From a virus: a stretch of DNA of 36,422 nucleotides. The position numbers and the translations under genes are program-made. The stretch lies in the IMG/VR virus record IMGVR_UViG_3300030108_003529, positions 2,085 to 38,506 of that record. One strand, 5' to 3'. Positions within the stretch are counted from its first letter, which is position 1; every line of letters begins with the position of its first letter. Positions 5,009 through 33,487 of this stretch are shown here, piece after piece. Below the pieces are notes generated by a model. The model worked only from the letters and a program-made list of their open reading frames with translations, did no database searches and was not told the origin of the DNA.

Positions 5009-5432
5009 AGAGCGCTACGAGTGGGAGATAGAGCAGCGCTTCAAGGCTATGGACAGCCGAGACAGGTGGGTTGCTGCTGACGGGGTTCACACGATAGGAC
5101 CGCCAATCCCTCCTAGCGCGACAGTCTTTCACGGGGAAAGCCCGACCCCAACGTTCAAGCTTGCGACCGACGAGGGCTACATAGCTGTAAGGCCAGCGTG
5201 CGAAATTCTGGGCATATCAAGAAGAGGCATGAGGAGCTTGATTGACAAGCTTATGGTGCTTGATGTCGCGTACGTTGTTTATCCAGGTGTGAAGAAGAAC
5301 AGCCGGTATCACTGCCGGATGATTCACAGGAAGTCTGTGAACGTTCTTAAACGGGATGTGCGTAAGTGGATGAAAGAAGCCAACCGTAATGGCAAGAAAA
5401 CAAAGGCAGCAAACATACGCAGAAGTGGCTGA
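4866..5432 (+). CDS. helix-turn-helix protein, candidate small terminase subunit, up to 188 aa
   Basis: A DNA-binding domain is visible at about residues 105-160: YIAVRPACEILGISRRGMRSLIDKL is a MerR/excisionase-like helix-turn-helix, followed by a Lys/Arg-rich beta-turn region and a basic C-terminal helix. Directly upstream of the large terminase and overlapping it by 44 bases, it is the best candidate for the small terminase that recognises phage DNA. This is a positional inference, since no TerS family motif is seen. The start is uncertain: ATG 4866 gives a 143-base overlap with the zinc-ribbon gene and a low-complexity Ser/Arg/Gly start; ATG 5049 gives a 127-residue product but drops the convincing acidic segment before it. 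Confidence 0.75.
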   Translation: MDATPGAESAAQQPQESGSAPRRGGSSTSRRSRGTTRSVGEKSFPTDEERYEWEIEQRFKAMDSRDRWVAADGVHTIGPPIPPSATVFHGESPTPTFKLATDEGYIAVRPACEILGISRRGMRSLIDKLMVLDVAYVVYPGVKKNSRYHCRMIHRKSVNVLKRDVRKWMKEANRNGKKTKAANIRRSG

Positions 5433-7326: not shown

Positions 7327-7834
7327 GGCCATAGACTCCCCAGCCAGTCTTAGTGATACGGCCTGGGTCTTTGTAGACAACATCGTGGACAGCCTTGGTG
7401 GTTAGGCCAGTGGCTTCGATGATGTCCTTAAGTCGCATCTCACCCTTTTCGGTGAGCAGAGACTCGATGGCAGCACGGGCAATGTCCCGGTCAGAGGCGG
7501 TGACTGCGCCCTTCTTCTTCCCGAAGGTGCCACGGTAGTCGCCATCGTCTGCGATTTTGCTACCAGCAACAGCAAGCTGCCGGTCTCGCTCCTGCTTTGT
7601 GTAGTAGCTCTTGCCCTTAAGCTCTGGGCTCGCAGTTCGTCCCCAGGTTCCACGGACTGTTAGGTCAGCAGGGGCAGAAGTGAAAGCACGCTTCGCTCCC
7701 ATTCGGCCACAGTGCGGGCACCACACGTCTCGGAAGTCGTCCTTGCGGCTTCGCTCGTAGATGTCAGGCTTTGTGTGCCAGTCAAAAACACGCCCGCACA
7801 GGTCGTGCGTGCATTTCATGTCGTAGATACGCAT
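7289..7834 (-). CDS. FmdB-like zinc ribbon plus winged-helix protein, 181 aa
   Basis: Two domains are visible. Residues 1-55 read like an FmdB-type zinc ribbon: MRIYDMKC, then C8-x4-C13 and C39-x2-C42, followed by KRAFTSAPADL, which matches the ribbon's usual KR-x-(F/I)-x-SAP ending. Residues about 112-170 (IARAAIESLL..., LKDIIEATGLTTKAVHDVVY, then WGVYGL) form a winged helix-turn-helix. The combination suggests a DNA-binding regulator or packaging accessory protein. ATG 7834 has AAGGGGA six bases upstream and lies nine bases after the portal stop, so the two are co-transcribed. Its 3' end overlaps the terminase gene on the other strand by 38 bases. Function is not known. Confidence 0.82.
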   Translation of the reverse strand: MRIYDMKCTHDLCGRVFDWHTKPDIYERSRKDDFRDVWCPHCGRMGAKRAFTSAPADLTVRGTWGRTASPELKGKSYYTKQERDRQLAVAGSKIADDGDYRGTFGKKKGAVTASDRDIARAAIESLLTEKGEMRLKDIIEATGLTTKAVHDVVYKDPGRITKTGWGVYGLTGVSSQTASSA

Positions 7835-7843
7835 TAAATCCCC

Positions 7844-9811: not shown

Positions 9812-9885
9812 GGTTCCGATGGTACTTGACAAAAGTTTCTGGTTAAACTCATATCCAATTAACGCAAAACGCGTTTGGAGGAACC
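9812..9885. promoter_or_regulatory. divergent control region between portal and scaffold genes
   Basis: This short space separates the minus-strand portal from the plus-strand head operon. On the plus strand a perfect TTGACA lies at 9826-9831, followed by an AT-rich stretch with a weak CATATC (9850-9855) 18 bases downstream, a sigma70-like arrangement. A perfect 10-bp palindrome AAACGCGTTT lies at 9867-9876, between the -10 candidate and the GGAGGA ribosome-binding site, where an operator would act. No equally good minus-strand promoter was found. Only the -35 box is a strong match. Confidence 0.4.
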
Positions 9886-12834: not shown

Positions 12835-12866
12835 TCTAAAACTCACTCGCTCTAGGAGGGTTGTTC

Positions 12867-14144
12867 GTGAACCTCTCGGAACTCAGAACGGCTCTTCAAG
12901 AGCGACGTGAGGACTACTCAGCCTCCGACGCTAAGCTCAATCGTCGGATTAATCAGGCGTACCTAGACATCTGCTCTAGGCGTAAGTGGGGATGGCTTCG
13001 CAGGGAATACACTGCGAACACCTACCAGAGCACTACAGTTACGGGGACAGGGGCGGCTCCAAACAACGTCCACTACACCAACGGGTCTAACAAGGTGGGG
13101 CTAGGAGCCAACAAGGTTCCAGGCCCTACAGTGCTTGGTAAGCGAGTCCTCATCGACAGCGCTTTCTACACAGTCATTGACATGGACTCTAATGGTGAGG
13201 GTCTCTACCTAGACCGCCCGTTTACTGGGACCACGGTGGCCTCAGGAACAGGCACTGGCACCGTCAAGTTTGTCTATGACGAGGTAGCCCTTCCGCTAGG
13301 TACAGAGTCTGTCATTGAAGCAGCTTTGTTTACGGGGTCTACGTCTTACGCTCTAAACCTAGAGGCGATCCAGCCAGCCACGATGGCTATGCGCGATAAG
13401 GATGTCTCTGGGCAGCCCACTGCTTGCTCTGTGATGGAGAAGAAGCCCATCTACAGGCCGCGCACTAAGATAGGCGCAATCTCCTCGTCTGCTGGCGCTG
13501 GTGGCCTTACTACAGGGGCTACTTACAAATACTGGTACTCCTTCTACGACAAGAAGTGTGGGGCTGAGTCTGCTCTCAGCGAGTACACAAGCGTCACATT
13601 GGGGGCAACCCACAACACGGTCACCTTGCCCAACGTATCGGCCCGCAAGGACTACGTTGTTCGGCTTTACAGGAGCACCGCTAACGGCTCTATCCCTTAC
13701 CTCCTCAGGGACCAGCTTGAGGAGACTGTCGTTGCTCTCAACGACACAGAGTCTGACGAGTATCTCGGCGCTAGAGGCCCTGACAGCGCGTCTACGATGT
13801 TCATGACGCTCTACCCGTACCCAGACTCGACGTATCAAGTTCACATGCTTCTGATGATGGAAGCTCTCAAGCTTGATGACGACAACGACCGTCCGATGTT
13901 CGACTCTGGATATTCGACTGTGCTTCTGGATGGCGCTGAGATGCTGATGCTCAACGCAGAAGACGAGCAGTCTAGAGCGAGTGCAGCCCAGCGTCGTTAC
14001 GAGGCTGGCATTCAAAGGATGATTATGCAGGACAGGCTTAACTTCCAGCAGCGTGTCTTGATTGGCAGGGGGAACCGCAGGGTCGTAGGAAAGGGCACTT
14101 GGCTCTACGCATCTGGCCTTGATGACAGCAACTTTAGGGCTTAG
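12867..14144 (+). CDS. head-tail adaptor / tail tubular protein A-like
   Basis: A 425-residue protein whose N terminus (LSELRTALQERREDYSASD followed by LNRRINQAYLDICSRRKWGWL) is the helical signature of podovirus adaptor proteins that dock beneath the portal, such as T7 gp11 and P22 gp4. The middle part (about 60-310) is an inserted Thr/Gly/Ser-rich beta region with a fibronectin-like pattern YKYWYSFYDKKCGAESALS and VRLYRSTANG. The C-terminal part returns to helices (LDGAEMLMLNAEDEQSRASA). The inserted domain makes it about twice the length of T7 gp11. GTG 12867 is chosen because AGGAGG lies seven bases upstream; TTG 12861 is too close to that site. Confidence 0.8.
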   Translation: MNLSELRTALQERREDYSASDAKLNRRINQAYLDICSRRKWGWLRREYTANTYQSTTVTGTGAAPNNVHYTNGSNKVGLGANKVPGPTVLGKRVLIDSAFYTVIDMDSNGEGLYLDRPFTGTTVASGTGTGTVKFVYDEVALPLGTESVIEAALFTGSTSYALNLEAIQPATMAMRDKDVSGQPTACSVMEKKPIYRPRTKIGAISSSAGAGGLTTGATYKYWYSFYDKKCGAESALSEYTSVTLGATHNTVTLPNVSARKDYVVRLYRSTANGSIPYLLRDQLEETVVALNDTESDEYLGARGPDSASTMFMTLYPYPDSTYQVHMLLMMEALKLDDDNDRPMFDSGYSTVLLDGAEMLMLNAEDEQSRASAAQRRYEAGIQRMIMQDRLNFQQRVLIGRGNRRVVGKGTWLYASGLDDSNFRA

Positions 14145-14146
14145 CA

Positions 14147-16417
14147 ATGTCTAAGGCACGCGGGAAGCTCACTGCGTTTGAGCCAGCTAATGTTGCTGGT
14201 CTAGACACTCGAATCTGGCAAGGCAAAGGTTCTGCTGGCGCTATTGATGGCGTTGAGTTCTCTCTTGAGGGGGAGATCATCAAAGCCTTTGGCTATCAGA
14301 GGCTGCTTTCCTGGCGCAGAGAACAAGGCGCTCGTGGCCTTGTAGAGGTCAACCCCCTCAAAGACGCTGAGGTTCTTACTCTGGGCACGTTTACCTGGGG
14401 TGGGGCGACTGAGCTTGTTGTCGCTTACTGGGTGCCGCCTTACGTCGCTGACCTCACTGATGCTGACAGGGGTAAGGTGTTCATCGCTGTCCTTGAGACG
14501 AATAAGCTCAGGACTATCTACAGCTACGCGCTAGGCCGCACGAAGCCTCGCCCTAACAAGTACCCACGCTTCACTGACGCAGGTCAGTTCCTCATCATCA
14601 CTGTAGATGGGATGAAGCCGCGTAAGTGGGATGGTCGCCTGTTGACCATGATGGGCATCCACACGGTCCCTGAGCCGGTTCAGGTCGCTGCGATGGTTGG
14701 GTTGGGCGACAAGAAGGACGAGCCAACAAGTAAGCCAGATAGCGCTGGAGACTTCTGGGAGTCTCACTGCTTTGACCAGGATGACGCCACAGCGGCTGAG
14801 GTTGAGTATTACCAGACCTTTATGAACATGTATGGGCAGGAGTCGAACCTGTCTGCTGTGTCAAACAGGCTTGTCCTTAGTGACTACCTTGAGGTTTCGG
14901 CTAAGAAGAGCTTTGCCCCAGCGGTTGGCGGGAACGCCAGTGTGGGCTTTACTTCGACGGTTGCTGGAATGGCTGGTGTGGGTCAGTCGTCATCTTCGGC
15001 GGCTAACTACTCAGTTACGACAGAGGGCTCGTACAACTCAACCAGCCCCAGCACTGCCTCTGGTACTCCTCTGACAAATGTAACTAGGATTTCTGGGGCA
15101 AACGCAGGCTCGCCTCAGAACAGGCGCATCGTTGCTTTCCTAGACCTGGGCGACCCGCCCCCTGAAGTAGACATTACCCACCGCCTTCTCTACCGCAGCA
15201 TTAGCGGACAGCCTCCGGTTGCTCTCCCCCGAAAGCTAGGGGTTGCGTCTAACACACACTTTGATGTCCGCAGAATCGTCGCAGCTTCTGCTACTCCTGC
15301 CCCTGGCCCTGGCGAGAATGACCCGCCGCCCCCTGCGCGATGGTGTTTCATGTTTAGGGGCCGCGCTTACTACCGTGGAGAGGGGTCAATCCTCTACTAC
15401 TCAAAGTTGAACTTCCCTGAGGCGGTATCTACGACGAACTTCATTGAGATCAACACCAGCGATGGTGACGAGATCACCGCCTGGGGCGCTTCTCAGGACT
15501 ACGCAATCATCTTCAAGCGTAAGAGCGCCTTCCTCCTTACTCATGACAAGAGCGAGGAGCCAGTAATCACGCCATTGCAGGGGACTTTCGGCGCTATTAC
15601 AGACAGAGCCGTCATTACCTACGACAACAACACATACTTCTTGTCGGACATCGGCTTCCACTTGTTTGATGGGTCTAGTTTTAAGCGCCTGTCCTCTGTC
15701 CTTGACCAGAAGGTTAAGCAGCTTCCCATGCACACCAGGGAATCGGCCACTGTGTTCGCTGATAGGTCAAACAACAGGGTCTACATCTCGGTCAATGGCA
15801 ACCCTGGCGTAGAGAACAACCAAGTCTGGGCGATTCACACAGACAACGGTGCCTTCACGGTCATCGACAACCGCCCTGTCGCCGCTGCGGTCCCCTACAA
15901 GGGCGAAGTCATCCTGTCGGCTAAGGATTCTGGCGACGAGTACAACCTGTTCCTCTGGGGGACTGGTTATGACCTGGACGGGGAAGCGTTTACGGGGAGC
16001 TACTCCACTGAGTGGATTGAGTTAAAGAACCCACACAGCGATAAGCGCTTCTACAAGCTGCTTATGTACTTTGTGCAGACCGGGAACATCTCTATGACGG
16101 TTTCCTGGTACGCAGACTGGGACGACAGGACCCCTGCTGGCTCTGCGACGTTCACGCTCAAGGCTGACGACGCTCTGTACTGGGATGACTCCACTAAAAC
16201 CTGGAGCACCAGCTACAAGTGGGACTCTCGACGCCTTGTAAGCAAGTTCGTGGACCTCAAAGAGACCCTCAACAACGCCGCTCAAGACATCACGGCAAAG
16301 GCTGTGCGCTTTGAGTTCAAGACTACGGCTGTAGACACGCCATTCCGCCTAGTCGGGTGGCAGGTTGTTGCTGACGACTACGGTGAGCGCGCAGAGGGGA
16401 CGGCAAAGCGTGATTGA
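14147..16417 (+). CDS. tail nozzle / tubular protein B-like, beta-propeller hub
   Basis: A 756-residue beta-rich protein directly after the adaptor, matching in size and place the T7 gp12 nozzle (and the role of P22 gp10). Propeller-like repeats are visible in the middle and later parts: DEITAWGASQDYAIIFKRKS, TDRAVITYDNNTYFLSDIGF, ATVFADRSNNRVYISVNG and DEYNLFLWGTGYDLDGEAF. A Ser/Ala-rich low-complexity loop (about residues 270-305) and a Pro-rich segment (GPGENDPPPPARW) interrupt the fold, as surface loops that could hold fibres. The start ATG 14147 follows the adaptor stop by two bases. The last eight bases overlap the next small gene. Confidence 0.82.
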   Translation: MSKARGKLTAFEPANVAGLDTRIWQGKGSAGAIDGVEFSLEGEIIKAFGYQRLLSWRREQGARGLVEVNPLKDAEVLTLGTFTWGGATELVVAYWVPPYVADLTDADRGKVFIAVLETNKLRTIYSYALGRTKPRPNKYPRFTDAGQFLIITVDGMKPRKWDGRLLTMMGIHTVPEPVQVAAMVGLGDKKDEPTSKPDSAGDFWESHCFDQDDATAAEVEYYQTFMNMYGQESNLSAVSNRLVLSDYLEVSAKKSFAPAVGGNASVGFTSTVAGMAGVGQSSSSAANYSVTTEGSYNSTSPSTASGTPLTNVTRISGANAGSPQNRRIVAFLDLGDPPPEVDITHRLLYRSISGQPPVALPRKLGVASNTHFDVRRIVAASATPAPGPGENDPPPPARWCFMFRGRAYYRGEGSILYYSKLNFPEAVSTTNFIEINTSDGDEITAWGASQDYAIIFKRKSAFLLTHDKSEEPVITPLQGTFGAITDRAVITYDNNTYFLSDIGFHLFDGSSFKRLSSVLDQKVKQLPMHTRESATVFADRSNNRVYISVNGNPGVENNQVWAIHTDNGAFTVIDNRPVAAAVPYKGEVILSAKDSGDEYNLFLWGTGYDLDGEAFTGSYSTEWIELKNPHSDKRFYKLLMYFVQTGNISMTVSWYADWDDRTPAGSATFTLKADDALYWDDSTKTWSTSYKWDSRRLVSKFVDLKETLNNAAQDITAKAVRFEFKTTAVDTPFRLVGWQVVADDYGERAEGTAKRD

Positions 16418-18810: not shown

Positions 18811-19536
18811 ATGGCGACTATTGGAGATGCTCTGTACGACGTTTTCGGTCCTGGCCGTGCCGATGATGGCATGTCCATGCGCGCATACGATCCTGCCTTT
18901 GGAGAAGAAGAGCGAATTGCCATCCAGGCACAGCTCCCACAACTCACAGGAAGGGTGCCGATTGCTACTGGACCTACTGGGGTTTATGGTCGCTTGCTCG
19001 CTGATGCTGGTAGGCGTCAAGCTGCTCAATCAGCCGCGCTAGGGGAGCTTGTTACGGCTGCTCGTGGACAGCGCATGAGAGCCCGCGACGAAGCCCTCAT
19101 TCAAAAGCAGCGTGAAGAGCGTGCAGCCGACGAGGCCACTCGCCTTCAGCAGGCTCGACTCCGCAAGAACATCCTCGCTGGGGTGGGGGAGATGGGCGAG
19201 AACGTCATGTCTTACCTACAAAGCCCTGGCTTCCAGGCACAGCTACAAGCGCAGAAGGACGCTAAGGCTAAGGAGCCGGCTTACAAGCTAGATGCCAGCC
19301 CCATGCTGGCCGAAGAGCTAGACTTTTCCTTGTCGCGGGCTGGTGCCCCGGCAATGACGGCCCAGCAGAAAGCGATTAGTCGAGCCCAGGAGGGGATTAT
19401 GGGCGACGTGGCTAGGGGTTACCAGTTGAGGCAAGCCAACAGGGAGCTTGCGGACCTTGCGCCGACAAATCTTGAGGGCAGGCTTGGTCAGCTTTACAAA
19501 AGCGGCCCCGCGTTCAACCCCTTGATGAGGTATTGA
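18811..19536 (+). CDS. probable internal virion protein, 241 aa
   Basis: An Ala/Gln/Arg-rich, mostly helical protein. The central part (about 70-130) is a long charged helix rich in Arg/Glu/Gln (GQRMRARDEALIQKQREERA), typical of coiled coils; a Gln-rich stretch FQAQLQAQKDAKAKEP follows. It begins the group of internal/ejection proteins and is two bases from the next gene. It has no T7 counterpart that I can identify. The N-terminal MATIGDALYDVFGPG is less helical. The assignment as an internal protein follows from composition and position before the glycine-zipper protein. Confidence 0.75.
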   Translation: MATIGDALYDVFGPGRADDGMSMRAYDPAFGEEERIAIQAQLPQLTGRVPIATGPTGVYGRLLADAGRRQAAQSAALGELVTAARGQRMRARDEALIQKQREERAADEATRLQQARLRKNILAGVGEMGENVMSYLQSPGFQAQLQAQKDAKAKEPAYKLDASPMLAEELDFSLSRAGAPAMTAQQKAISRAQEGIMGDVARGYQLRQANRELADLAPTNLEGRLGQLYKSGPAFNPLMRY

Positions 19537-19537
19537 G

Positions 19538-20311
19538 ATGGCTAGAGGCACACGACAAGATCCGTTCCTTCCCAGTCGAGACCGAGACAGGGGTGGCATC
19601 AATCAAGAGAAGCTCTACCGGGACATCCAGCAAGCTCAGCGTGCGCGCATTGCATCTGGGATGAAGCTGGGCCGAGAGGCCACTGAGGCTGCTCAGGCCG
19701 CTGGAGCCATTGAGGCTGGACGACTCGCTGCTGCCCGTGGGATGGGCGGTGGCATGGAGGAGACGCTTCGAGGAGCTATGTCTGCCAGTCAGGCAGACGC
19801 CCTTGCTGCTTCTGACGCGCGCCGCAGGGCTAAGCTTCTTGACGATGTCCAGGCTGTTGGCGTCCAGATGACAGAGAAGGCTGCTGCTAGCGCCGCTGAG
19901 AGGGCAGAGCGAAAGGCTCGGCGTGCTTCTGAGGCTGGCTCTGTGCTCGGAATGCTCGCTGGCCTTGGCGGTCTTGCCTCTGCGGCAACCCCACTTGCTG
20001 CTGCCGCTGGCCCGATTGGGCTTGCCCTTGGTGGCATTGGGACTATTGGCTCTACCATCGCTGGGCTTGAGGGTCAGAAGGCTAGAGGCCAGGCGTCTGA
20101 CATTCGCAAGGAAGCCTCTGACTTCATGACTGAGAAGCTCCCCCAAACCACTAAGGGTCTTGAGAAGATTACTTCTATGACCCCTTCTTACAGTGGCTTC
20201 GAGAGTAGCTTCCTGGGAGGCCAGGGGATGGGTCGCCCTCGTCGCATGGCACAGCAAGCCTCTCCCTTCGCAGACGCTCTGTCTGACATCAGCTTCATTG
20301 ACATCGAATAA
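19538..20311 (+). CDS. internal/ejection protein with glycine-zipper segment, T7 gp14-like position
   Basis: A 257-residue Ala-rich protein. Residues about 130-170 (VLGMLAGLGGLASAATPLAA followed by GPIGLALGGIGTIGSTIAG) are a long small-residue hydrophobic stretch with GxxxG spacing, able to insert in membranes. Before it lies a long Ala/Arg/Glu helix. In T7-like virions gp14 is the small ejected protein that forms an outer-membrane pore, followed by gp15 and gp16. The gene order here (257, 965 and 2391 residues) copies that small-medium-large series, so a gp14-like role is inferred. Sequence similarity to T7 gp14 itself was not assessed. Confidence 0.72.
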   Translation: MARGTRQDPFLPSRDRDRGGINQEKLYRDIQQAQRARIASGMKLGREATEAAQAAGAIEAGRLAAARGMGGGMEETLRGAMSASQADALAASDARRRAKLLDDVQAVGVQMTEKAAASAAERAERKARRASEAGSVLGMLAGLGGLASAATPLAAAAGPIGLALGGIGTIGSTIAGLEGQKARGQASDIRKEASDFMTEKLPQTTKGLEKITSMTPSYSGFESSFLGGQGMGRPRRMAQQASPFADALSDISFIDIE

Positions 20312-20321
20312 GGAATAAACA

Positions 20322-23219
20322 ATGGCTTTCGTCCTTCCCGCTGGAGACTACGAGAGAGCCCTTCGCATGGCGGGGGCTTCTAACTTTATGGAAGCGCTGG
20401 AAGCCGGCATCGACAGGGGGATGCAGCGTCAGGCCATGCGGGAGAAGGCTGCTCGCGATAGAGAGCTTTACTACCGGGCGCTTGAAGACCAGGACGCTCC
20501 TCTCCTGTCTCCGGTAGACCTAGCTCCTGAAGATGTCACGATGGCAGACCTCCTTGCTGGTGTTGATACGGCGGCTGCTGCTGAGTTGGCCCAGGAGGCT
20601 CGGGTTGCTGGAGCGATGGAGCAGGCTCTTAGTGGGGCGGGGGCGATGGGCACTAGTGGGGCGATGGGTGCTGCGCCTAGCACTGGCGCTGGCACGGCTC
20701 GTGCCGCTACTCCAAAGGCAGCTACTGCCCCGCCGCCTGCTGCTTCTGAGCCATCGCGGGGTCGCACGACAGTTGTCTTCCCTGAGAGTGAAGTGGGGGT
20801 TATTTCTGCAATTCGTCCTACCCAAGCACCCGCAGCGCCCGCTGTGGCTGCTGAAGTTCCGGCTGCTGGAGCGACCACTAGCGCGACTGCTGACTCTCGG
20901 CAGAAGGCTCTTGATGAGTACCGAATGGCAGAGGCTGCTCACAATGAGGCCCTTAGAAGGGGTGATAAGGATGTGCAAGCTACGAAGGCTCGCCTAGACG
21001 AGGCATCCAGAGCTTACAAGATGCTCGACCCATCTGTTCAGGAACAGGCGTCTACCCTTGAGCGCGCTCTTGCCGCTGACGCAAGCTACCAGTCTCAAAC
21101 CAGAGGAGACCTAGCCCCATCTCTAGACAACCGAAAGTTAGAGCTTGGCGCAAATGTTAGGCGAGCAAGGACTGCTTTAGAGCAGGCGCTTGATGCGGTT
21201 TCTATCCCTCCGAGTGAAGAGGCTGACAGGGAAAGCGCTCTTGAGCGGATAATCCGTGGGGCGGTTAGCGCTGCGAACGCCATGTATCCTTCGGTCCCGC
21301 CTTCGTCAGCCGTGCAGGCTGCGGCTATTGGCCCTGTGGCTTTGATGGCGGCGCAAGAGGCCAGTAGAGGCGCTCTCCCTGGCGCTGGTGAGATGGCTGG
21401 AGTCAGCACCGCAGACCAGCGAATGTCTGACGCTGTGCGCTCGCCCCAGCCTTCGCCAGTGGAGCGTACGCGGGCGAGGCTTCGGGACTCGACTGAGTTC
21501 GGCGTCCCCCTTTCCGCCCTTGATGAGGCTCTCGCGCCACGGGTTGCTAGCTCCCTTGGTGAAACCATTGATGAGACTAGGCGGCAGGAACAGCGTCGTC
21601 TCCAAGGCATCGAAGAGAATGCTCTTGGCGCTGGCTCGATGGCTCCTGGCGACCTTGGGTTTGGGGCTACTCCTGGCACTCCGCTTGATCAGGCTGTTGC
21701 TGATCAGCAAGAAGTGACTGAACAGGCTGCTGTTGCTGAGCCTGAGGTCCCTGCTCAGACTGCTGAGACAAAGATTGAGGGCACGGACTCTAAGGGCAAC
21801 AAGTACACGGTTGTCGCTGGAGACACGGTAAGCGGGCTTGCCAACCAGTACGGCACTTCTGTGCAGGCCATCTTTAACGCTAACAAGGGCCTCTTTACTG
21901 AGAAGGACGGTACTCCGCGAGCCTTTGTCGGGCGTGGCGGTAAGCGACTTCTTGAGGGCGTGGACTACATTGAGATTGGCGACGAGCTTGTTATCCCGAG
22001 TGGCAAGGGCCTTAAGGATGGCGGGGAGCCAGGTCCTATTGACCCTCGACCATTGACCACTGGCACTGGACCTAGCGGTGAAGTGACTAGCTCAGAGGGC
22101 GTCCTTGCAAGGCTCCAGCGAGCGACTAAGAACAACGCTGAGCTTAAGTCGAGACTTGAGGCAGAGCAGAGGAAGAACCCGACCTCCCTCCTCAACCCGT
22201 TCACCCGCTTTGGGCGAGACATTACTTACACTCCTGCTCTTGAGGCTGTGTCTCGTGCCATGCTTCGCGCTAAGCGCGGAGACTTTGGCCTTATCAATAA
22301 CTTGGCTGGGCGACCTGTCCGCAACGATGAGGTCATGGGCCTTTACAACGAATACCAGGATTTCGTTCGTGGAGCTAAGGGCAACGCTAAGCAGATCGTC
22401 ATCAACCGCGCTATCCGAGAGAAGCAGAAGGCGCTCGCTGAGAAGACTGCCTCTGAGAACGCGATTGCAGCTTTGTTCACTGAGCAGCTTGTTCGCAACG
22501 GGATGAGTGCGAGAGAGGCGCAGACTATTGCGGGGCACGCATCCACCATCCAGGACAAGAACATCCGGTCTCAGTTCCTCCGTGGTTACCAGCAGCTTGG
22601 TGCTGACAAGCGGAAGGTCGCCCTCGCTAGGATTAAGTCCAACTTGGCTGCGACTGCGAAGGGTGTTGACCCGCTGAAGTCTGCGACTGGGGACCTAAAA
22701 ATTGCTCAGGTAATCAGTGCTAGGGAAGATCAAGAGAAAGCAGTCAGGTCCATCTTGGGCCTAATTGGCAATCGGGCTAAAGACCTTAAGGATGGTGGGC
22801 CTGCGATTTCTAGGTACCTAATCATGTCTAGGGACCCGGACTACCCGGTTCCTGTTCTGGACAGGGGGAAATTAGACGACTTGGTCGAGTCGGGCCAGAT
22901 GGACAAGGCTAAGGCAGACGAGTTTAAGGGAGAGTACGACGCCTGGTTTAGTAGCATTGAGCCTCTTACGACTGACCTGGAAACAGCTAGGCAGCAGGTA
23001 ACGATTTTCAAGAAGATGGAGAACGCGATGGTTCCATTCTTGAAACAGGAGAGGCAGGCGCTAGAGGCTGGCGGTGAGGTGGAAGACCTTGGGGAGGCCC
23101 CGGAGGGTTACATGAGGGCTCGACGCCCAGGCACCAACGAGGTGTACGACATCCCGATTGTTGACGGAAAGCAGGGTCCGGTTGAATCTTGGATTCCTGT
23201 TGAAGTAGGCCAGGGGTAA
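20322..23219 (+). CDS. internal/ejection protein with LysM domain, 965 aa
   Basis: Three parts can be seen. The N-terminal third is helical, then low complexity, rich in Ala/Pro/Gly (about 85-190), with further helices. At about residues 494-559 lies a LysM-type peptidoglycan-binding module: KYTVVAGDTVSGLANQYGTS, then AIFNANKG and finally IGDELVIPSGKG; the loop before the last strand is about 20 residues longer than in ordinary LysM repeats. The C-terminal 400 residues are helical with many charged residues. It occupies the gp15 position between the glycine-zipper protein and the giant protein. The LysM suggests that it grips the cell wall during DNA ejection. GGA lies eight bases before ATG 20322. 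Internal location is inferred. Confidence 0.78.
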   Translation: MAFVLPAGDYERALRMAGASNFMEALEAGIDRGMQRQAMREKAARDRELYYRALEDQDAPLLSPVDLAPEDVTMADLLAGVDTAAAAELAQEARVAGAMEQALSGAGAMGTSGAMGAAPSTGAGTARAATPKAATAPPPAASEPSRGRTTVVFPESEVGVISAIRPTQAPAAPAVAAEVPAAGATTSATADSRQKALDEYRMAEAAHNEALRRGDKDVQATKARLDEASRAYKMLDPSVQEQASTLERALAADASYQSQTRGDLAPSLDNRKLELGANVRRARTALEQALDAVSIPPSEEADRESALERIIRGAVSAANAMYPSVPPSSAVQAAAIGPVALMAAQEASRGALPGAGEMAGVSTADQRMSDAVRSPQPSPVERTRARLRDSTEFGVPLSALDEALAPRVASSLGETIDETRRQEQRRLQGIEENALGAGSMAPGDLGFGATPGTPLDQAVADQQEVTEQAAVAEPEVPAQTAETKIEGTDSKGNKYTVVAGDTVSGLANQYGTSVQAIFNANKGLFTEKDGTPRAFVGRGGKRLLEGVDYIEIGDELVIPSGKGLKDGGEPGPIDPRPLTTGTGPSGEVTSSEGVLARLQRATKNNAELKSRLEAEQRKNPTSLLNPFTRFGRDITYTPALEAVSRAMLRAKRGDFGLINNLAGRPVRNDEVMGLYNEYQDFVRGAKGNAKQIVINRAIREKQKALAEKTASENAIAALFTEQLVRNGMSAREAQTIAGHASTIQDKNIRSQFLRGYQQLGADKRKVALARIKSNLAATAKGVDPLKSATGDLKIAQVISAREDQEKAVRSILGLIGNRAKDLKDGGPAISRYLIMSRDPDYPVPVLDRGKLDDLVESGQMDKAKADEFKGEYDAWFSSIEPLTTDLETARQQVTIFKKMENAMVPFLKQERQALEAGGEVEDLGEAPEGYMRARRPGTNEVYDIPIVDGKQGPVESWIPVEVGQG

Positions 23220-23224
23220 GGGAC

Positions 23225-26200
23225 ATGGCGGTCGAGGTTGATTGGAGCGTTCTTGACAGCCCCCCTGCCGAAGCTGAGGTCCCTGAGAGCGAGGCTGTTG
23301 AGGTTTCTGGGGCTGCTCCTGTAATCGACTGGGGTGTCCTTGACGAAGAGAAGCCTCAGGAGGCCCCGGCCTTAGAGCCTGCTCCAGCAATGCCAGAGGC
23401 AAAGGCTGAAGCCGACAAGGGGGTTGAGGTTGATTGGAGTGTTCTCGACGGTGAGGAAGCTCTAGCTCAGCCTGTTCGCAGAATTCCAGGCACTCCGATC
23501 CGAGTCCCAATGCCCCAGCCTTCTGCGGGTATGACGACATCAGAGAGGCTTTCGTTTGAGGCTTCTGGAGCCACAGCGCCTGAGGTCCCAGGGCTTGAGT
23601 TCGCTGGAGCTAGGCTCTCTCAGCTACCGGAAGAGCTTACGATTAAGCCTCCTGAAGACATCAAGAAGCGGTCAAAGAGGCTTACTGGTGAGGAGCTTGA
23701 GGTTAAGTGGGCTGAAACTGCTTACGTCTACAACAGACTAGATAACCCTTCAGAGAGGGTTAAGGTCCTTGCTGACTTCTTCTACGCCTGGGACCCAGAG
23801 GTCGCGGAACGGTTTGGCCTTAAGGAAGATGGCACTGTTGAGGCTGAGGGAATCTGGTGGGCCTTTGACCAGTTCGACAAGTGGTTCCCAACAGAGCGAC
23901 CCCTTCGCGCTGCTATCAACTCTCTTTACGATCTTCGCAAGTGGTACTCAGCAGCAGACCTTTCTGACGACATTGAGAGACCAAAGTTTGATGACGTTGC
24001 ACGGATGCTTTACCGCAACTGGGAGCAAGACAAGGGAAGCTTTGAAGACGGAGAGAAGGCGTTTAAGAGCCTTGGCATGTACCTCAGTGGGCTCGCCCTT
24101 GGGGGGACTGATGAGGAGAAAGCTAAGGCCCTATTTGAGCTAGACGCAAATTGGGACCAGTCAGCCGACAGTACGGCTAAGGCAATTACTTCGTTTGGCT
24201 GGAGCGCGGCTAAGCCAGCAATCAAAGCGCTTACGGGGGCAAATGAAGAGCAGTTCCAGAGAGCAAAGGATGAGGCCGTAGCCCAGGGTGAGGGTGGTCA
24301 CATGGTGATTGGTCTTGGTGGCCTAATGCTTGGGGACACCATCCGGGGCATCACCAACCTAGCCTCTGGGAAAGCTGCAACCTCCTTAGCCCCAGAGGCT
24401 GAAGAGGCGATCAAGGACTTGATGACGGGTGGTGTTGACCTGACAGAGCAGGGCAAGCTTGCTATCGCCTCCCACGCTGACGACCTCCAGACTCAGGCTC
24501 GCCGCGTTCTTATGAGCGACATCGTTGAGGCCAACCCAGCGATGGACCTGTCTAGGCTCTCTAAAATATCTAAGCAGATTGACGAGACTGAGGACCTGAT
24601 AGAGACGTATGAGACAAGCGCTGTCGTTAGGCCAGACTTTGCAGAGGCTGAGCTTCCGGCCTTGCGGGAGCTAAAGGACACTCTGGACGAGCAGTTCTAC
24701 AGCGTTTACGACGAGCTAAAGCCTAAGGATGTTAAGCGAAAGGGTGGCGTAGTTAGTGGGGTCTCGTCGCTTCTTCCGGCAAAGTCTGCTGAGAAAGCCA
24801 TTAAGTCTAGGCTTCGCATTCTTGCTGCGATGGACATGAACGACGCTGTTGACGTTGCTTTCAAGTACAACGCTCCGCTGGCTGGCATCGACTCTCTTAA
24901 GGTGTTCACGAGGCTTCGGCACATAGCTAAGTCAAACGACATCCCGATGAACCAAATGGACAAGGCGTGGGCAGACGCGGCCTTGCGGGCTGATGCGCGA
25001 GGCGAAGTCTTAGTTAAGGGCGTCCCAGAGATGTCCGCAGGCGAGCTTCTTAGGGTCAACGGAGTCTCTAAAACTCCTGAGGTTGCAGACATCTACAGGC
25101 GCGCTCTCAAGGGAGAGTTCGGTGATGCAGCTAGGGTTTCTGCTCAGCGTCCTGAGTACAACGCACTTGAGACCCTGCTCTCTCGTGGGGTTAAGGGAGT
25201 TCCTAGCTTCAGCGACCTGAAGAAGACTGCAAAGGAAGGGCTTGAGAACCAGACAAAGGTGTTCCGAGACCTTAAGGACGCAGCGAGGATGCGTGCTGCT
25301 GCTGATGGCACCACCGTTGTAGGCCGTGCAGCGCGGCGTGCTGGCGAGACGATTGCCTCTGCGATTCCAGGGGCGAGCAAGGCCGCGAAGACCGCTGATG
25401 GCCGAATCATGCGGGCTCAGAGCCTAGTAGACAACATCTCCCCAGTGGGCTTCTTGGTTGCCCACAAGATTGCTGGCATCGGCGGTGTAGGGGCAGCCTT
25501 TGACAAGCTTCGTAGGGCTGTCAACGGGATGATGCACTTGCGTGGTCCTGCCAGGGTTCAGGCTTACACCACTCAAGTCGATGGCTTTACTCGGCAGATT
25601 GACCGACGACACCTTGTCCATCCTGGCCTTCACTACAAAGCTCAGAAGGCGGAGCGACAAAGGCTACGCAATGCGAGCGCTCTCCGCTCCAGGTTGCCAG
25701 AGGTAGAGCGCAAGCTTGCCACCATCACAACCAACAAAGCCATCCTAAGGATTGCCCGTGACTACATTGAGCGTGGCTGGATAGACGAGACTGAGTTGGC
25801 CCAGCTTGAGCAGGAGCTTTACACGGCGGCTGCTTTCAGAGAGTTGACTGGAGTCATTGAATCAGTTGAGGCTCTGTTTAGTCTTCAGAAGGTTGGGACT
25901 CCAGGAGCTAAGCCCCTTGGTGATCTTAGTGTCATCTCGCCAGAGGACACCAGGAGAGCGGTTGAGTCTCTGCGCCACCTCAAGACTGTCAACATTGGCG
26001 ACAACCCAGCGTTCGACCCAGAGGCTCTAGACGCCCTGGCTTCAGACATTGTCGCTTACGGGGACGCTGTCGAGGCTGACCTTCTTGTTCCGCTTGCTGA
26101 GCGCAGAAGGATGAAGGTCGGTGGAGAGGCTGAGGCAGAGAGGCTTGACAGGCTTAGGAATGTAAAGAAGCAGCTTGGGACTTTCGCCAGTGTTTACGAG

Positions 26201-29200
26201 GGAGTCCTTAAGGGCAACCTGGGGACAAGGACAGAGCTTTCCATCGCTAAGATGGCTGACTCGTATACGCCAGAAATCACAAGGCTTCAGGGTGACCTGA
26301 TTGAGATTGAGAAGCGCCTCAACCAGACAAAGGACGATGTTGCTGAAGGCTTTGACGTAGACGCTGCGGTGGCAGAGGCGCTTGCTGGCGCTCGTGAGGC
26401 TTTGCCTGGAGCTAAGTTTGCCGAAGACGTACTCCCTGTTGCTGATGAGATTGTGGAGTCTGCTGAGTCCACTGTCCCAAACTGGAAGAAGCCCTTTGAA
26501 GAATCTGGCTTAACCAGGGACGTTTACGAGGCAGAGGTCATTGGCGCTATCAAAGCTGGCGAGGATGTCCCTGACTCTGTTGTCAATGCGCTGCCCTCCG
26601 CTAAGGTCGCCCAGCTTGAAGGCGAGCTTGAGCTTCTTGCCCGCTCTTTGGCTGAAGGCACAAAGGCTGCGGAAGGGGCCATTAAGAGCGCTGAGAAGGG
26701 AGCATACGGAGCAGTCGCTAGAAAGGCGGGGGTGGCCCAGAAGCAAGCTAAGGTTGCTGCCCGCACTGGTGTCCGCGCTAAGGGTGGGGCTAGCTCTATC
26801 CGTGCTTTGACTCGCCAAATCAAGGAAGCCAAGAGAAGGGCTAACTTTGCCATCCCTGTTGGCAGTAAGAACCGGCAACTCCTTGAAGCTACGAGACAGC
26901 TTTACCGAAGCAGGATGGCTGAAATCTCTGGGATCATCCGAGACGAAGCCACTCTTATGCGGCAGGAGACTGCTAACGCCATTGAAGGGTTGCTTGAGAA
27001 CGTCATCCCCAGTGGCATCGTTAGCCCCGACGAGAGGAGACTGGTTGAGCAGGCTGTTGACGCCATCATGCAAACCATTTCTCCTAAGAGCCCGGAGATC
27101 CCTTCGGTCGGCAAAGAGAGAATCAACAAGACCTTTAGGAAGCTTCTTGACCCAGACACCCTAGAGAGAATCGCTAGGCGTCAGATAGAAGTAGACCGGA
27201 TTAAAGACCCAAAGAAGCGCGCAACAGAGCAGGCGAAGCTTGACGATAAGAAGCTGAAGCTCTCAGAGAGCATCGAAGAACTCGTTGCTAGTGGCGTTAA
27301 GATGACCCCTCTTGACGCTGCCATCCACAGCATTTCACCTGTTGCCCGTAAGGCTACGGCTGGGATGCCTGGGAAGCGCCTTACACTTAAGGACATCAAG
27401 GAGCGTGCGGCGAAGGGGAGCCCTGAGCTAAAGGCTTTCATCCGTTCTCTGGACGACCTAGACAACGACCTTCGGCATCCAAAGGACATTCGCAGGAGTC
27501 TTGAGGCGACCGTAAGCTCTAGCTTCAACAACCTTGAGAAGGCTGCCTTTGACTTCCAGGACAAGCTGAGGGCCTTTGAGGCTTCCGAGTGGGCGAGGGG
27601 GCTCAAGGGGATGACGGTCTCTCAGCGCCATCGGGTCGCTAGGATTGTTCAGAACCCTAAGCACCACGACTTGATTGGCGGCAAGAAGATCCTTGTCTCT
27701 GAACTCCAGACTAAGCTGGCAAAGGTGTCCCAGGCCGCTAGGAAGCTAGAGCAAGAGGGCAAAGACAACAGCAGGCAGGTGCAGACTAAGGCTGACATCG
27801 AGGAGAAGCTTGCTCTTCTCGGTGACGCTGAGGAGTCCCAGCGGATTATCGACGCTGCCAGAGTCATGAAGAAGTTTTTTGACGACTGGAAGAAGGACCT
27901 TGAAGACGTTGGAGTTCTTAGCGACCTGGACGTTGATGAGTTCTTCTCTCGCGTCAACGTCGCTGGCTACATCCCTCATGTCCTTTCTTACGCAGGCGGT
28001 AAGAAGATTGCCGCTCTCAGGGCTAAGAACGCACTCCCCGGTAACTCAAGTCCTAACTTTGCGAGGCTTCGTAAGATCACCGGGACGATTGATGAGATTA
28101 ACGACCGATTCCGTAGAGAGCTTGCGGAGAGCATCGTTGGGCATCAGGCGCTTCGTGGCGTGTACGGAGAGGCTGCTGCCAGAGCGGCTGAGGGTGGTTC
28201 GTTCAAAGAGTTTGCAGAAGAGGCGGCAGCGCAGGGCACGCTCAGGAGCTACGACGAGCTTGTCGATTCTGTAAACGTAGAGTTTGGCCTGGACTCTGTT
28301 TACGAGTTTTTTGAGACAGACCCTCTCGTCCTTATGGAGAGGTACAACTCTCAGGCAAGTCGCTCTGTCGCAGACGCAGTCTTTATCGAGGACATCCTAG
28401 ACATCTTCCCGATGGGTCGTCAGTTCTCCCGTATCTACGGCAACAGGGCAGATGCAGACTACGCAGCTTCCCAGGCTGGCTACGTCAGGCTCGACAAGGT
28501 CAGCCACCTTGAGAGCATTCTTAGGACGCCGCTTCCTAAGAAGCTTAGAGAGTTTGAGCCGTACATCAGGCGTCGCCTCGACGAGGGTGTTTCGATGCCT
28601 GAGATCGTTACAGAGCTTAAGGCGTTCGATGTTGATGTAGACCCAGACATCGTAGCTTCAATGAGGGCACCGGATGTTTATGTCCCTGTGTCTGTTGGTG
28701 AGTACCTAAACTGGAAGAACACTTCAGACGCTGGCTATGCAGACTCCGCGTTTGGAAAGCTTGCCGACAGGATGCACTCGTGGATGAAGGCGCAGGCAAC
28801 GATTGCTGCTTTCGCTCACATCATGAGAAACGTCATTGGCAACGTCGTCTCCACGGCCCAGGAGATTGGTTGGTCTGCAATCAACTGGCGGTATCAGCTT
28901 GCGGCTATACGGATTTGGGGAGACATCGGCTCTGCTGACGACATCATCCAGATTGGTAAGCACTCCCTAACGCGGGACGAGTGGCAGGGCATCTTCCGCG
29001 AGGCTGGCTTCTTCGAGACTCCGCTCTCTTCTGACTTCGCTTATGAGATGGGGAGAGGTGGTCTTAAGCAGATTCCCACCCTCAAAGACCTGGGAGTCCA
29101 GCTTGCGAGCACTGTCGCTGGGGCTGCTGCGGGCGCTGGTGTTGGAGCCCTGTTTGGCGTAGCTCCTGCGGCTGCGTTTGGCGGTGCGGCCCTGTCTCTC

Positions 29201-30400
29201 GCCGCCAGGAGAGCCCTGTGGTCTCCTAAGATTGTTAATGGCAACAGAAGCCTTACGAAGTTTGCCAAAGACACTATCGAAGAAATCAAAGCAGCCCCTG
29301 AAGAGGCTTTGTCTGGCGCTATCCCTGGCCTGCTGATTGGCTCTGCAACCGGCGGTGTGGGTGCAATCCTTGGGGCGGCTATCGGCGCGTCAACAATGTC
29401 TGACTACCTCAAGATGATGGGTGGGCTGAACGCTTCTATTGAAGCTCAGGCGCGCTTGTCTATGGGGATTGGCGCTATCGCTAAGGGCAAGAACTTTGAC
29501 GAGGCCCTGGGCTCTGTTAATGCCGCACTTCGTGACTACTCAGACTTGACTCCGTTCGAGAAGAACGTCCTTCGCCGCGTCTTCTTCTTCTATACCTGGG
29601 AAGCTGGCAACCTTAAGTTCCAGCTTGATTGGCTACGTCGCAGGCCGAGAGCCGCTGCAATGGTCAGCAGGTTTATGAACGGGCTCTACAAGGAGCAGTT
29701 CACTGAAGAAGAAATCTCCATGATCCCTGAGAACTGGAGGTACAGAGTCATTCTGCGGACTGGCGCGAGCAAGATGATTGGCATCTCAGGGCTCCCGTTT
29801 GAGTCTGCCCTAGACATCCTTACTCGCGGGGAGCGCCCAGTCTTTGACGCGATGGTACAGAGGCTGCACCCTGTCCCCCTTACTGCGATGGAGTTCTTCA
29901 TTGGAGGCGGCAAGAGCGTCTACTACGGGCGAGAGTGGCGCGACCTCACCAACGTAAGGCAGCTAAAGAACGCTCCTCCTGGTCTTAAGTGGGCGGTTGG
30001 TTTCCCGAAAGAGGGCGAAGAGACTTGGACTGAGGTCTACAAGGATGGAGTTGTTGTCGGACAGCGACCCGTCTATGTGGCTAAGAACCCCACCATCTTC
30101 TACTTGCTGCAAAGACTTCCTGGTTGGCGAGTGATGAACCAGTACATGGCGGTCGCTGCTGACACGTTTGACTCTTACGCGCTCGACGCAGGAGACGAGT
30201 CGGCAAAAGCAACGAACCTAGACAGGGCCTTGATGTTCGGTCTTGGGTACAGGTTTACGTCTGTAGATATGGAGACTATGGGGCAGATCGCTTCTGCGAA
30301 GCTTGAGCGAAAGCTTCTTGAAGAGCTTGACCGAGTCAACTCAAGGTCCGTCGTTGAGATGCGTAAGCTTCGTAAGGATTACAGTGCGCCTAAGCAGTGA
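23225..30400 (+). CDS. giant internal/ejection protein, 2391 aa, T7 gp16-like position
   Basis: One uninterrupted frame of 7.2 kb. Residues 1-80 are acidic and Pro-rich with three copies of (V/I)DW(S/G)VLD. The bulk (about 150-1850) is helical with many Lys/Glu/Arg coiled-coil stretches, including a Lys/Arg/Ala-rich basic part (about 1150-1250). From about 1855 a segment AFAHIMRNVIGNVVSTAQEIG precedes two glycine-zipper hydrophobic stretches: TVAGAAAGAGVGALFGVAPA (about 1963-1985) and IPGLLIGSATGGVGAILGAA (about 2033-2055). The C terminus is globular and ends LRKDYSAPKQ. T7 gp16 is 1318 residues; this is nearly twice as long. I see no clear lytic transglycosylase or protease motif. The role as the major trans-envelope DNA conduit is inferred from size, order and zippers. 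Confidence 0.85.
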   Translation: MAVEVDWSVLDSPPAEAEVPESEAVEVSGAAPVIDWGVLDEEKPQEAPALEPAPAMPEAKAEADKGVEVDWSVLDGEEALAQPVRRIPGTPIRVPMPQPSAGMTTSERLSFEASGATAPEVPGLEFAGARLSQLPEELTIKPPEDIKKRSKRLTGEELEVKWAETAYVYNRLDNPSERVKVLADFFYAWDPEVAERFGLKEDGTVEAEGIWWAFDQFDKWFPTERPLRAAINSLYDLRKWYSAADLSDDIERPKFDDVARMLYRNWEQDKGSFEDGEKAFKSLGMYLSGLALGGTDEEKAKALFELDANWDQSADSTAKAITSFGWSAAKPAIKALTGANEEQFQRAKDEAVAQGEGGHMVIGLGGLMLGDTIRGITNLASGKAATSLAPEAEEAIKDLMTGGVDLTEQGKLAIASHADDLQTQARRVLMSDIVEANPAMDLSRLSKISKQIDETEDLIETYETSAVVRPDFAEAELPALRELKDTLDEQFYSVYDELKPKDVKRKGGVVSGVSSLLPAKSAEKAIKSRLRILAAMDMNDAVDVAFKYNAPLAGIDSLKVFTRLRHIAKSNDIPMNQMDKAWADAALRADARGEVLVKGVPEMSAGELLRVNGVSKTPEVADIYRRALKGEFGDAARVSAQRPEYNALETLLSRGVKGVPSFSDLKKTAKEGLENQTKVFRDLKDAARMRAAADGTTVVGRAARRAGETIASAIPGASKAAKTADGRIMRAQSLVDNISPVGFLVAHKIAGIGGVGAAFDKLRRAVNGMMHLRGPARVQAYTTQVDGFTRQIDRRHLVHPGLHYKAQKAERQRLRNASALRSRLPEVERKLATITTNKAILRIARDYIERGWIDETELAQLEQELYTAAAFRELTGVIESVEALFSLQKVGTPGAKPLGDLSVISPEDTRRAVESLRHLKTVNIGDNPAFDPEALDALASDIVAYGDAVEADLLVPLAERRRMKVGGEAEAERLDRLRNVKKQLGTFASVYEGVLKGNLGTRTELSIAKMADSYTPEITRLQGDLIEIEKRLNQTKDDVAEGFDVDAAVAEALAGAREALPGAKFAEDVLPVADEIVESAESTVPNWKKPFEESGLTRDVYEAEVIGAIKAGEDVPDSVVNALPSAKVAQLEGELELLARSLAEGTKAAEGAIKSAEKGAYGAVARKAGVAQKQAKVAARTGVRAKGGASSIRALTRQIKEAKRRANFAIPVGSKNRQLLEATRQLYRSRMAEISGIIRDEATLMRQETANAIEGLLENVIPSGIVSPDERRLVEQAVDAIMQTISPKSPEIPSVGKERINKTFRKLLDPDTLERIARRQIEVDRIKDPKKRATEQAKLDDKKLKLSESIEELVASGVKMTPLDAAIHSISPVARKATAGMPGKRLTLKDIKERAAKGSPELKAFIRSLDDLDNDLRHPKDIRRSLEATVSSSFNNLEKAAFDFQDKLRAFEASEWARGLKGMTVSQRHRVARIVQNPKHHDLIGGKKILVSELQTKLAKVSQAARKLEQEGKDNSRQVQTKADIEEKLALLGDAEESQRIIDAARVMKKFFDDWKKDLEDVGVLSDLDVDEFFSRVNVAGYIPHVLSYAGGKKIAALRAKNALPGNSSPNFARLRKITGTIDEINDRFRRELAESIVGHQALRGVYGEAAARAAEGGSFKEFAEEAAAQGTLRSYDELVDSVNVEFGLDSVYEFFETDPLVLMERYNSQASRSVADAVFIEDILDIFPMGRQFSRIYGNRADADYAASQAGYVRLDKVSHLESILRTPLPKKLREFEPYIRRRLDEGVSMPEIVTELKAFDVDVDPDIVASMRAPDVYVPVSVGEYLNWKNTSDAGYADSAFGKLADRMHSWMKAQATIAAFAHIMRNVIGNVVSTAQEIGWSAINWRYQLAAIRIWGDIGSADDIIQIGKHSLTRDEWQGIFREAGFFETPLSSDFAYEMGRGGLKQIPTLKDLGVQLASTVAGAAAGAGVGALFGVAPAAAFGGAALSLAARRALWSPKIVNGNRSLTKFAKDTIEEIKAAPEEALSGAIPGLLIGSATGGVGAILGAAIGASTMSDYLKMMGGLNASIEAQARLSMGIGAIAKGKNFDEALGSVNAALRDYSDLTPFEKNVLRRVFFFYTWEAGNLKFQLDWLRRRPRAAAMVSRFMNGLYKEQFTEEEISMIPENWRYRVILRTGASKMIGISGLPFESALDILTRGERPVFDAMVQRLHPVPLTAMEFFIGGGKSVYYGREWRDLTNVRQLKNAPPGLKWAVGFPKEGEETWTEVYKDGVVVGQRPVYVAKNPTIFYLLQRLPGWRVMNQYMAVAADTFDSYALDAGDESAKATNLDRALMFGLGYRFTSVDMETMGQIASAKLERKLLEELDRVNSRSVVEMRKLRKDYSAPKQ
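23231..23449 (+). repeat. three imperfect repeats encoding (V/I)DW(S/G)VLD
   Basis: Copies at 23231-23257 (residues 3-11, VEVDWSVLD), 23321-23344 (residues 33-40, VIDWGVLD) and 23423-23449 (residues 67-75, VEVDWSVLD) sit in an acidic Pro/Ala/Glu-rich, probably disordered N terminus. Copies 1 and 3 are identical in protein and differ at the DNA level only in third positions, so selection acts on the peptide. They look like short linear docking motifs spaced by about 30 residues. Confidence 0.8.
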
Positions 30401-32606: not shown

Positions 32607-32879
32607 ATGACTAAGGACCAACTCATCCAGATTGGAATCGTTGTCTTCCCTACGCTTATCGCAGTGGGTGGGTTTCTTGCCGTTCAGGAGAGCACTGCTT
32701 CTGATGTCATGGCCCTAGAGGAAGCGGTGTCGGTTCACTCAAGCCTTCCCTCGCACCCAGTTGGCGCTAGCCAGATGGAGTCGATGCGAGAGGAGCAGCG
32801 TCTTATGCAGTCGGACCTCGTTACTGTTCGTGAAAACGTCGCAGCTATCTGCGCTGCAACCGGAGCAAGGTGCAAGTAA
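32607..32879 (+). CDS. small membrane-anchored coiled-coil protein, 90 aa (possible i-spanin)
   Basis: One N-terminal hydrophobic segment (residues about 7-26, IQIGIVVFPTLIAVGGFLAV) is followed by a polar helical part with heptad character (MESMREEQRLMQSDLVTVRE). This layout fits an inner-membrane spanin or another lysis-associated anchor, and the next gene is a cell-wall enzyme. ATG 32607 has AGGA about ten bases upstream and lies just after the fibre gene stop; the longer frame upstream is a shadow. Two cysteines near the C terminus (82 and 89) could form a disulfide in the periplasm. No outer-membrane lipoprotein partner was found overlapping it. Confidence 0.7.
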   Translation: MTKDQLIQIGIVVFPTLIAVGGFLAVQESTASDVMALEEAVSVHSSLPSHPVGASQMESMREEQRLMQSDLVTVRENVAAICAATGARCK

Positions 32880-33487
32880 TGCTTCCTCCTGTACTACATC
32901 GTATCAAGTCCCTGGGTCATAAGGTCTTCACGAATGGAGACTACAACCTCAACCTCTTTGGGATCCGCTCGCCCGAGACAACCTCCGGGGCTTACAATGA
33001 TCTGCTCGGCTGCGCCTATAAGGTGGGCGGGCAGTGGCACGTCCGCTACTGGGCAGCGACGACGGACCCCTCCATCTACTACCGAGAGAACCCGCTCAAC
33101 GTAAAGGGCACCGCGATCCTCGTTCCAGGCCAGTATTCCGGGGTCTACAAAGTGGACATGCATGCTGGCAAGTACCTCGCGCTCTGCCAGCGCAACGGAC
33201 CCGTGACGGTCTGGCGAGACGACAACCGGGACGAGGTTCTCGACCACAACGTGGACGAGGACACTGGCTACTTCGGCATTAACATTCATGCCTCATCGAG
33301 CACGCCCTACGACCAGACAAGGGACCGGGATGAGGACTCTGACATCGGAGTCTGGAGTGCCGGGTGTCAGGTTCACGCTACGACGACCGGATTCCGCGAA
33401 ATGATGGACCTAGTGAACAAGCAGATTGAGACTCACCCAACCTGGAAGAAGGCGTTTACATACACCCTTATCGACGGCGGGTGGTAA
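32879..33487 (+). CDS. YkuD-like (L,D-transpeptidase fold) cell-wall enzyme, probable endolysin
   Basis: The motif YFGINIHASS (His137) and, 26 residues later, VWSAGCQVHA (Cys163) match the H...S-x-GC signature of the YkuD fold, whose catalytic Cys and His attack peptidoglycan peptides. Upstream strands GTAILVPGQYSGVYKVDMHAGKY and PVTVWRDDNRD are typical of the phage version of this family. There is no signal peptide. It sits among small membrane proteins, so it is the likely lysis enzyme; whether it cuts or exchanges cross-links is not shown by the sequence. ATG 32879 overlaps the previous TAA (TAATG); GTG 32870 is an alternative. Length 202 residues. Confidence 0.82.
   Translation: MLPPVLHRIKSLGHKVFTNGDYNLNLFGIRSPETTSGAYNDLLGCAYKVGGQWHVRYWAATTDPSIYYRENPLNVKGTAILVPGQYSGVYKVDMHAGKYLALCQRNGPVTVWRDDNRDEVLDHNVDEDTGYFGINIHASSSTPYDQTRDRDEDSDIGVWSAGCQVHATTTGFREMMDLVNKQIETHPTWKKAFTYTLIDGGW

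Follow-up and report, generated by a model that had tools for sequence, protein, structure and literature searches.

A giant candidate ejection protein of an uncultured short-tailed phage and the exchange slot in its backbone

The 2391-residue protein encoded in the window (the whole stretch of 36,422 nucleotides analysed here, taken from the 38,506-base IMG/VR record of an uncultured virus) is probably the largest and last-acting ejection protein of a short-tailed marine phage, with a slot for lineage-specific domains that ride into the host. Judged from the aligned sequences, one fixed slot in the giant's backbone is shown to carry exchangeable inserts in near-identical relatives. The defined exchange slot between two conserved flanks is the feature that appears here through the comparison of near-identical phages. 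The kind of protein is already known; its natural payload exchange appears unusually clear in this lineage.

The giant gene, its neighbours and its relatives

The giant gene starts with an ATG at 23225, ends with a stop codon at 30398-30400 and has no internal stop. A plausible AAGG-type ribosome-binding site lies directly 3' of the stop codon of the LysM gene. The frame is a real gene and not a chance ORF, because full-length homologues of 2792 and 2574 residues occupy the same place in two other contigs. The first-pass annotation had described a 2391-residue gene, covering about a fifth of the window and nearly twice the size of T7 gp16, that follows a small zipper protein and a LysM protein in small-medium-large order. 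The intact frame at 23225-30400, its 19.7% share of the window, its ratio of 1.8 to the 1318-residue T7 gp16 sequence, and the gene layout all agree with this description. The neighbouring genes used in the analysis were as follows.

5389-7326, + strand: terminase large subunit (phrog_2, 6.9e-13)
7844-9832, - strand (opposite strand): portal (phrog_1216, 1.7e-18)
12861-14144, + strand: head-tail adaptor, SU10 adaptor family (Pfam PF24175, 5.9e-9, above cut-off)
14147-16417, + strand: candidate tail nozzle (phrog_511, 3.6e-6; phrog_3287, 3.3e-6)
18811-19536, + strand: 241-residue protein with a variable C-terminal part, probable ejection cassette member (synteny and comparison of relatives)
19538-20311, + strand: glycine/alanine-zipper protein of 257 residues, candidate gp14-like pore protein
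20322-23219, + strand: LysM protein of 965 residues, candidate periplasmic-tunnel (gp15-like) ejection protein, mosaic among near-identical relatives (LysM domain at about 21804-21890, E=2.9e-8)

The structural genes run in the order terminase, portal, candidate scaffold, major capsid protein (phrog_9953, 7.5e-40), SU10-type adaptor, nozzle candidate, three probable tail proteins, the gene at 18811-19536, zipper protein, LysM protein and giant. The gene content of the window is of the short-tailed phage type, and the giant is the largest and last gene after two smaller candidate internal virion genes, downstream of the adaptor and the nozzle candidate. The synteny is kept in two contigs of about 52.7 kb and in two partial contigs. 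No sequence link was found between the LysM and zipper proteins and their T7 or phiKMV-like partners.

The portal gene and an adjoining 181-residue gene (together 7289-9832) are inverted between the terminase and the scaffold and capsid genes. As this inversion was also found in two relatives (G7 and G13), it is a stable feature of the lineage. Elsewhere in the window, 4568-5008 encodes an Endonuclease VII/HNH-like protein that also matches the Lar-like restriction alleviation family (2.2e-14). The product of 32870-33487 showed a strong match to phrog_3000 (function not known) and to an endolysin family (1e-19), and is probably a lysis enzyme.

No significant match emerged when the single sequence of the giant was searched against Pfam, PHROGs, NCBIfam, PDB sequences and phage records. 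By tblastn of the whole giant against 50,697 phage records, no match was obtained at 1e-3, and up to E 10 the matches were at chance level except for Cellulosimicrobium phage DS1. A PDB profile search gave no match, and no relatives were found in 84,980 bacterial and archaeal genomes. The strongest of the weak single-sequence signals came from phrog_167 (tape measure, E=0.0016) and from DS1, with a short match that gave E=4e-5 when a short query was used.

A search for related loci with the giant alone gave no relatives; they were reached via the terminase, and then by alignment and motif patterns. The terminase-based scan of IMG/VR yielded 36 contigs, 18 of which were searched with the giant, resulting in homologues in four records. 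Four more contigs with giant relatives were obtained by profile and motif, and later scans yielded no further ones. These eight other contigs hold two full giants, in G7 (2792 residues; contig of 52,763 bp) and G13 (2574 residues; 52,558 bp), and six partial ones. Both ends of the G7 contig fall in the nozzle gene, with about three codons between them, and G7 is therefore probably a complete circularly permuted genome.

Between the window and G7, identity was 89% for the portal, 86% for the capsid protein, 82% for the adaptor and 80% for the terminase. It fell to 68% for the nozzle, 39-41% for the small proteins, 31% for the LysM protein, and 24% and 38% for the N-terminal and C-terminal parts of the giant, respectively. 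This gradient agrees with the pattern described in PMC8954989, in which ejection proteins diverge faster than portals. Compared with each other, the near-identical phages G7 and G9 were 94-100% identical over most of the giant covered by both, while strong differences were seen in the LysM protein and in the 18811 homologue, there in its C-terminal part. The ejection cassette thus varies at several places in phages that are otherwise near-identical. The LysM protein of G7 (L045 5607-8891) has about five imperfect tandem repeats (SYGPGSGVVSVEDA...), which are absent in the otherwise near-identical G9.

The exchange slot and its payloads

The giant itself was divided into the following parts.

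23225-30400, + strand: giant candidate ejection-type protein, 2391 codons (ORF intact; homologues in other contigs)
23237-23449, + strand: N-terminal tail with three copies of [V/I]DW[S/G]VLD (aa 5-11, 33-40, 69-75)
23495-26503, + strand: N-terminal conserved helical region, aa 91-1093 (24% identity to G7; low-confidence helical model)
26504-26860, + strand: payload slot, aa 1094-1212 (119 aa), with the small segment P.WK...AEV..A.KAG..VP..V....P common to the window and G13
26861-30388, + strand: C-terminal conserved module, aa 1213-2388 (38-44% identity to relatives)
28814-28831, + strand: AHIxRN signature, aa 1864-1869
29090-29206, + strand: glycine-zipper hydrophobic segment 1, aa 1956-1994
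29309-29392, + strand: glycine-zipper hydrophobic segment 2, aa 2029-2056 (about); relatives match DUF6861 here, below the Pfam cut-off only
29531-29611, + strand: RDYSDLTPFEKNVLRRVFFFYTWEAGN signature, aa 2103-2129, partly common to the giants of phages DS1 and ctEqG8

Over G7 aa 586-1047 the giant of G7 matches that of G19 (contig 3300025112_000326) at 90% identity, and over aa 1446-2792 at 95%. Between these flanks the two giants carry unrelated inserts of 398 residues in G7 (aa 1048-1445) and 315 residues in G19 (aa 461-775). At the nucleotide level the flanks showed 93.8% and 96.2% identity, with no match between them. The sharp junctions can each be placed to within a few bases, both reading frames are open across them, and each insert has the GC content of its giant. 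Substitutions in the flanks were most frequent at third codon positions, as functioning genes would show.

Two other metagenomes yielded a pair of near-identical contigs whose first bases lie close to the start of the right flank, 2 bases before it in one contig and 18 bases after it in the other. Assembled contigs tend to end where members of a population differ in sequence. The two contig ends at the right junction agree with a polymorphic slot, and the contigs are probably not independent events. The payload swap between G7 and G19 rests on one fully spanned metagenomic contig pair and these two contig ends.

In the G7 insert a zincin was detected, with LHELVH (HELVH) and a downstream ELVAYGLT. 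It matched the solved internal virion protein chain 9sfn_G (1.9e-8), phikF77 gp41 (4e-9), the giant of a Limnohabitans phage (1e-13), the DarB-like protein of Serratia phage Parlo (8e-15), the LUZ7 vRNAP (2e-3) and phrog_2206, a virion RNA polymerase family (1.1e-10; this match of the relative falls on the zincin), and the HExxH is aligned between the G7 zincin and its homologues. The recurrence of this zincin in phiKMV-like cores, N4-like polymerases, DarB-like proteins and an unrelated giant backbone points to transfer of the payload among ejection machines that are not related to each other. The shared domain was noted at L045 12038-13231 (in the G7 giant) and L074 4738-8751. Metallopeptidase domains of this type have been described in N4 vRNAP and P1 DdrB (Iyer et al. 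2017, PMC5512222). In G7, a stretch on the upstream side of the zincin was read by eye as ParB-like, without profile support. The G19 payload (L054 1381-2325) belongs to no recognised family; in its N-terminal half it is similar to protein 47 of Salicola phage SCTP-2, a phage of 440 kb (E=1e-8). A GNAT-like reading of this payload was made by eye alone and received no support from Pfam or PDB.

The slot is about 120-130 residues long in the window and G13, which share the short motif listed above. No HExxH and no recognised enzyme were found in the 119-residue segment of the window, and its assignment to a known polyvalent-associated domain found no support. The earlier statement that the giant has no enzyme motif holds for the window copy (no HExxH, no Pfam or NCBIfam match above cut-off) and fails for the family as a whole, as the zincin of G7 shows.

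The family bears on how very large proteins pass through the narrow phage tail and on the roles that they have inside the host. Near-identical phages that differ in one carried domain would separate backbone from payload in nature, and the slot would supply natural insertion coordinates for tests of protein delivery by phages. It would also be a place to look for counter-defence domains of the infection stage.

The conserved backbone and its comparison with known ejection proteins

The motifs of the N-terminal tail differ in sequence between relatives (three EIVFDFS in G7, three SVYDLD in G9, two LLxELRAxR in G13), yet every relative whose sequence extends this far has its motif in two or three copies. 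G7 and G9 are 89% identical over 778 residues, yet all three copies of the tail motif differ.

The C-terminal module was conserved in every relative reaching that part. Its signature has the form RDYSDLTPxEKxVxRRxFFFYTWEAGN and was aligned by hhalign with the giants of DS1 and ctEqG8 at E values of 9.9e-6 and 2.4e-5, against 0.43 and 0.23 for the reversed controls, respectively. The two zipper segments that the first-pass annotation had placed near the C terminus were found 335-435 residues before the end, and the aligned relatives have both of them at the corresponding position. The giant has 5 hydrophobic windows against a shuffle mean of 6.6, which is not above shuffle; counts of hydrophobic segments alone are no evidence. 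Zipper triads were weakly enriched given the local composition (12 against 7.7, P about 0.08), and this region is the zipper maximum of the giant. Insertion of the segments in the inner membrane is plausible by analogy. The zippers may have entered an older module by insertion, as the DS1 giant showed none of these hydrophobic segments at the threshold applied.

Both halves of the giant were modelled with AlphaFold from six or seven sequences, and gave mean pLDDT values of 42.5 and 43.8, so that only helicity was taken from the models. Fold searches with these models returned low-score coiled-coil and tape-measure noise, and none at E 0.001 or better.

The best reading is that the giant is analogous to the gp16-type terminal ejection protein and not demonstrably homologous to it. 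Like T7 gp16 (with gp14 and gp15, the Autographiviridae core), it is the largest and last member of a small-medium-large set after the nozzle, is helical, diverges fast and has hydrophobic segments towards the C terminus. Unlike gp16 it has no recognised transglycosylase, the peptidoglycan-related domain (LysM) being in the medium protein, and it is 1.8 times as long, with a payload slot. Searches of Pfam, NCBIfam and PHROG gave no match to an N-terminal lytic transglycosylase in the giant. This domain is also absent in P22-like members of the gp16 type. In hhalign, the giant alignments A3 and A4 reached E values of 0.059 and 0.52 against T7 gp16, with 0.14 for the reversed control of A3. The homology to gp16 that the earlier comparison invited was looked for by sequence and profile, and none was found. 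Its ejection-type assignment was right in kind, considering the gene order, the neighbours, the LysM partner, the divergence and the payload homology in a relative, but it gained no support as homology to gp16.

In the phiKMV-like phages, the internal virion protein phikF77 gp41 (1337 aa) is likewise the largest of a three-gene set (181, 898 and 1337 aa), and it shares with its solved relative 9sfn_G the zincin of the G7 payload, which the window copy does not have. The N4-like vRNAP (gp50; LUZ7 gp73, 3403 aa) is also a giant ejected protein with an internal enzymatic domain, and has the same zincin as G7. No RNA polymerase domain was matched in the window giant (Pfam, PHROGs, NCBIfam, PDB), and neither phikF77 gp41 nor the LUZ7 vRNAP showed a relation to either half of the giant outside the payload. 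Polyvalent proteins (P1 DdrB, DarB-like) resemble the G7 payload in their zincin and ParB-like content and are encoded among late virion genes, whereas the window copy has no recognisable enzymatic domain. The several disparate enzymatic domains typical of polyvalent proteins were not recognised in the window giant, and in G7 only the zincin was confirmed. The giants of DS1 (1783 aa) and of the podovirus ctEqG8 (1106 aa) share the C-terminal signature D...LT..E..V..R...FY and a similar genome position. They have no N-terminal similarity to the window giant, and the DS1 giant differs further in that no hydrophobic segment passed the threshold in it.

Proposed ejection route and alternative explanations

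We infer that the giant is present in the virion. By analogy with known phages, it would be a late product that is packed into the head close to the portal. During infection, the small zipper protein and the LysM protein would be threaded out along with it; the first may form an outer-membrane pore and the second a periplasmic tunnel. The two C-terminal glycine-zipper segments would then insert in the inner membrane, and the long helical regions would line or follow the DNA path into the cytoplasm. Slot domains would ride with the giant into the host cytoplasm as its payload. The contents so delivered would be a zinc metallopeptidase and a ParB-like region in G7, a domain set without known family in G19, and a minimal segment without recognised enzyme in the window and G13. 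As a tentative extension, somewhat short of an even chance in our judgement, the terminal ejection protein of this lineage may be a fixed delivery backbone with a dedicated exchange site, by which close relatives deliver different domains at infection, and the N-terminal tail may be a loading tag that changes with its binding partner.

It is unlikely that the giant is instead a polyvalent effector packaged as head cargo, with the DNA channel built by the other two proteins alone. A relative does bear domains of the polyvalent type (the zincin and the ParB-like region), and packaged multidomain proteins exist, namely P1 DdrB and N4 vRNAP (PMC5512222), which counts for this explanation. However, the giant sits in the gp16 position, and the window and G13 keep about 2200 conserved backbone residues without a recognisable enzyme, which suggests a structural task of the backbone.

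A terminal ejection protein also accounts for the giant better than a tail tape-measure protein of a long-tailed phage, which we regard as improbable. The weak phrog_167 match lies at aa 1854-2183, the length and helicity of the giant would fit, and hydrophobic segments are common in tape measures. However, the structural region showed no recognisable gene for a tail tube, tail terminator or tail chaperone, and the adaptor and nozzle candidates are of podovirus type. The C-terminal signature is also found in the giant of ctEqG8, a record deposited as Podoviridae, and the payload zincin of the relative is found in podovirus internal virion proteins.

An assembly artefact as the source of the insert difference between G7 and G19 is very improbable, for although both are metagenome assemblies and a single contig pair spans both junctions, the frames stay open across sharp junctions, the inserts match their giants in GC, the contigs from two other metagenomes end at this very site, and ejection proteins of other phages contain domains homologous to the G7 insert.
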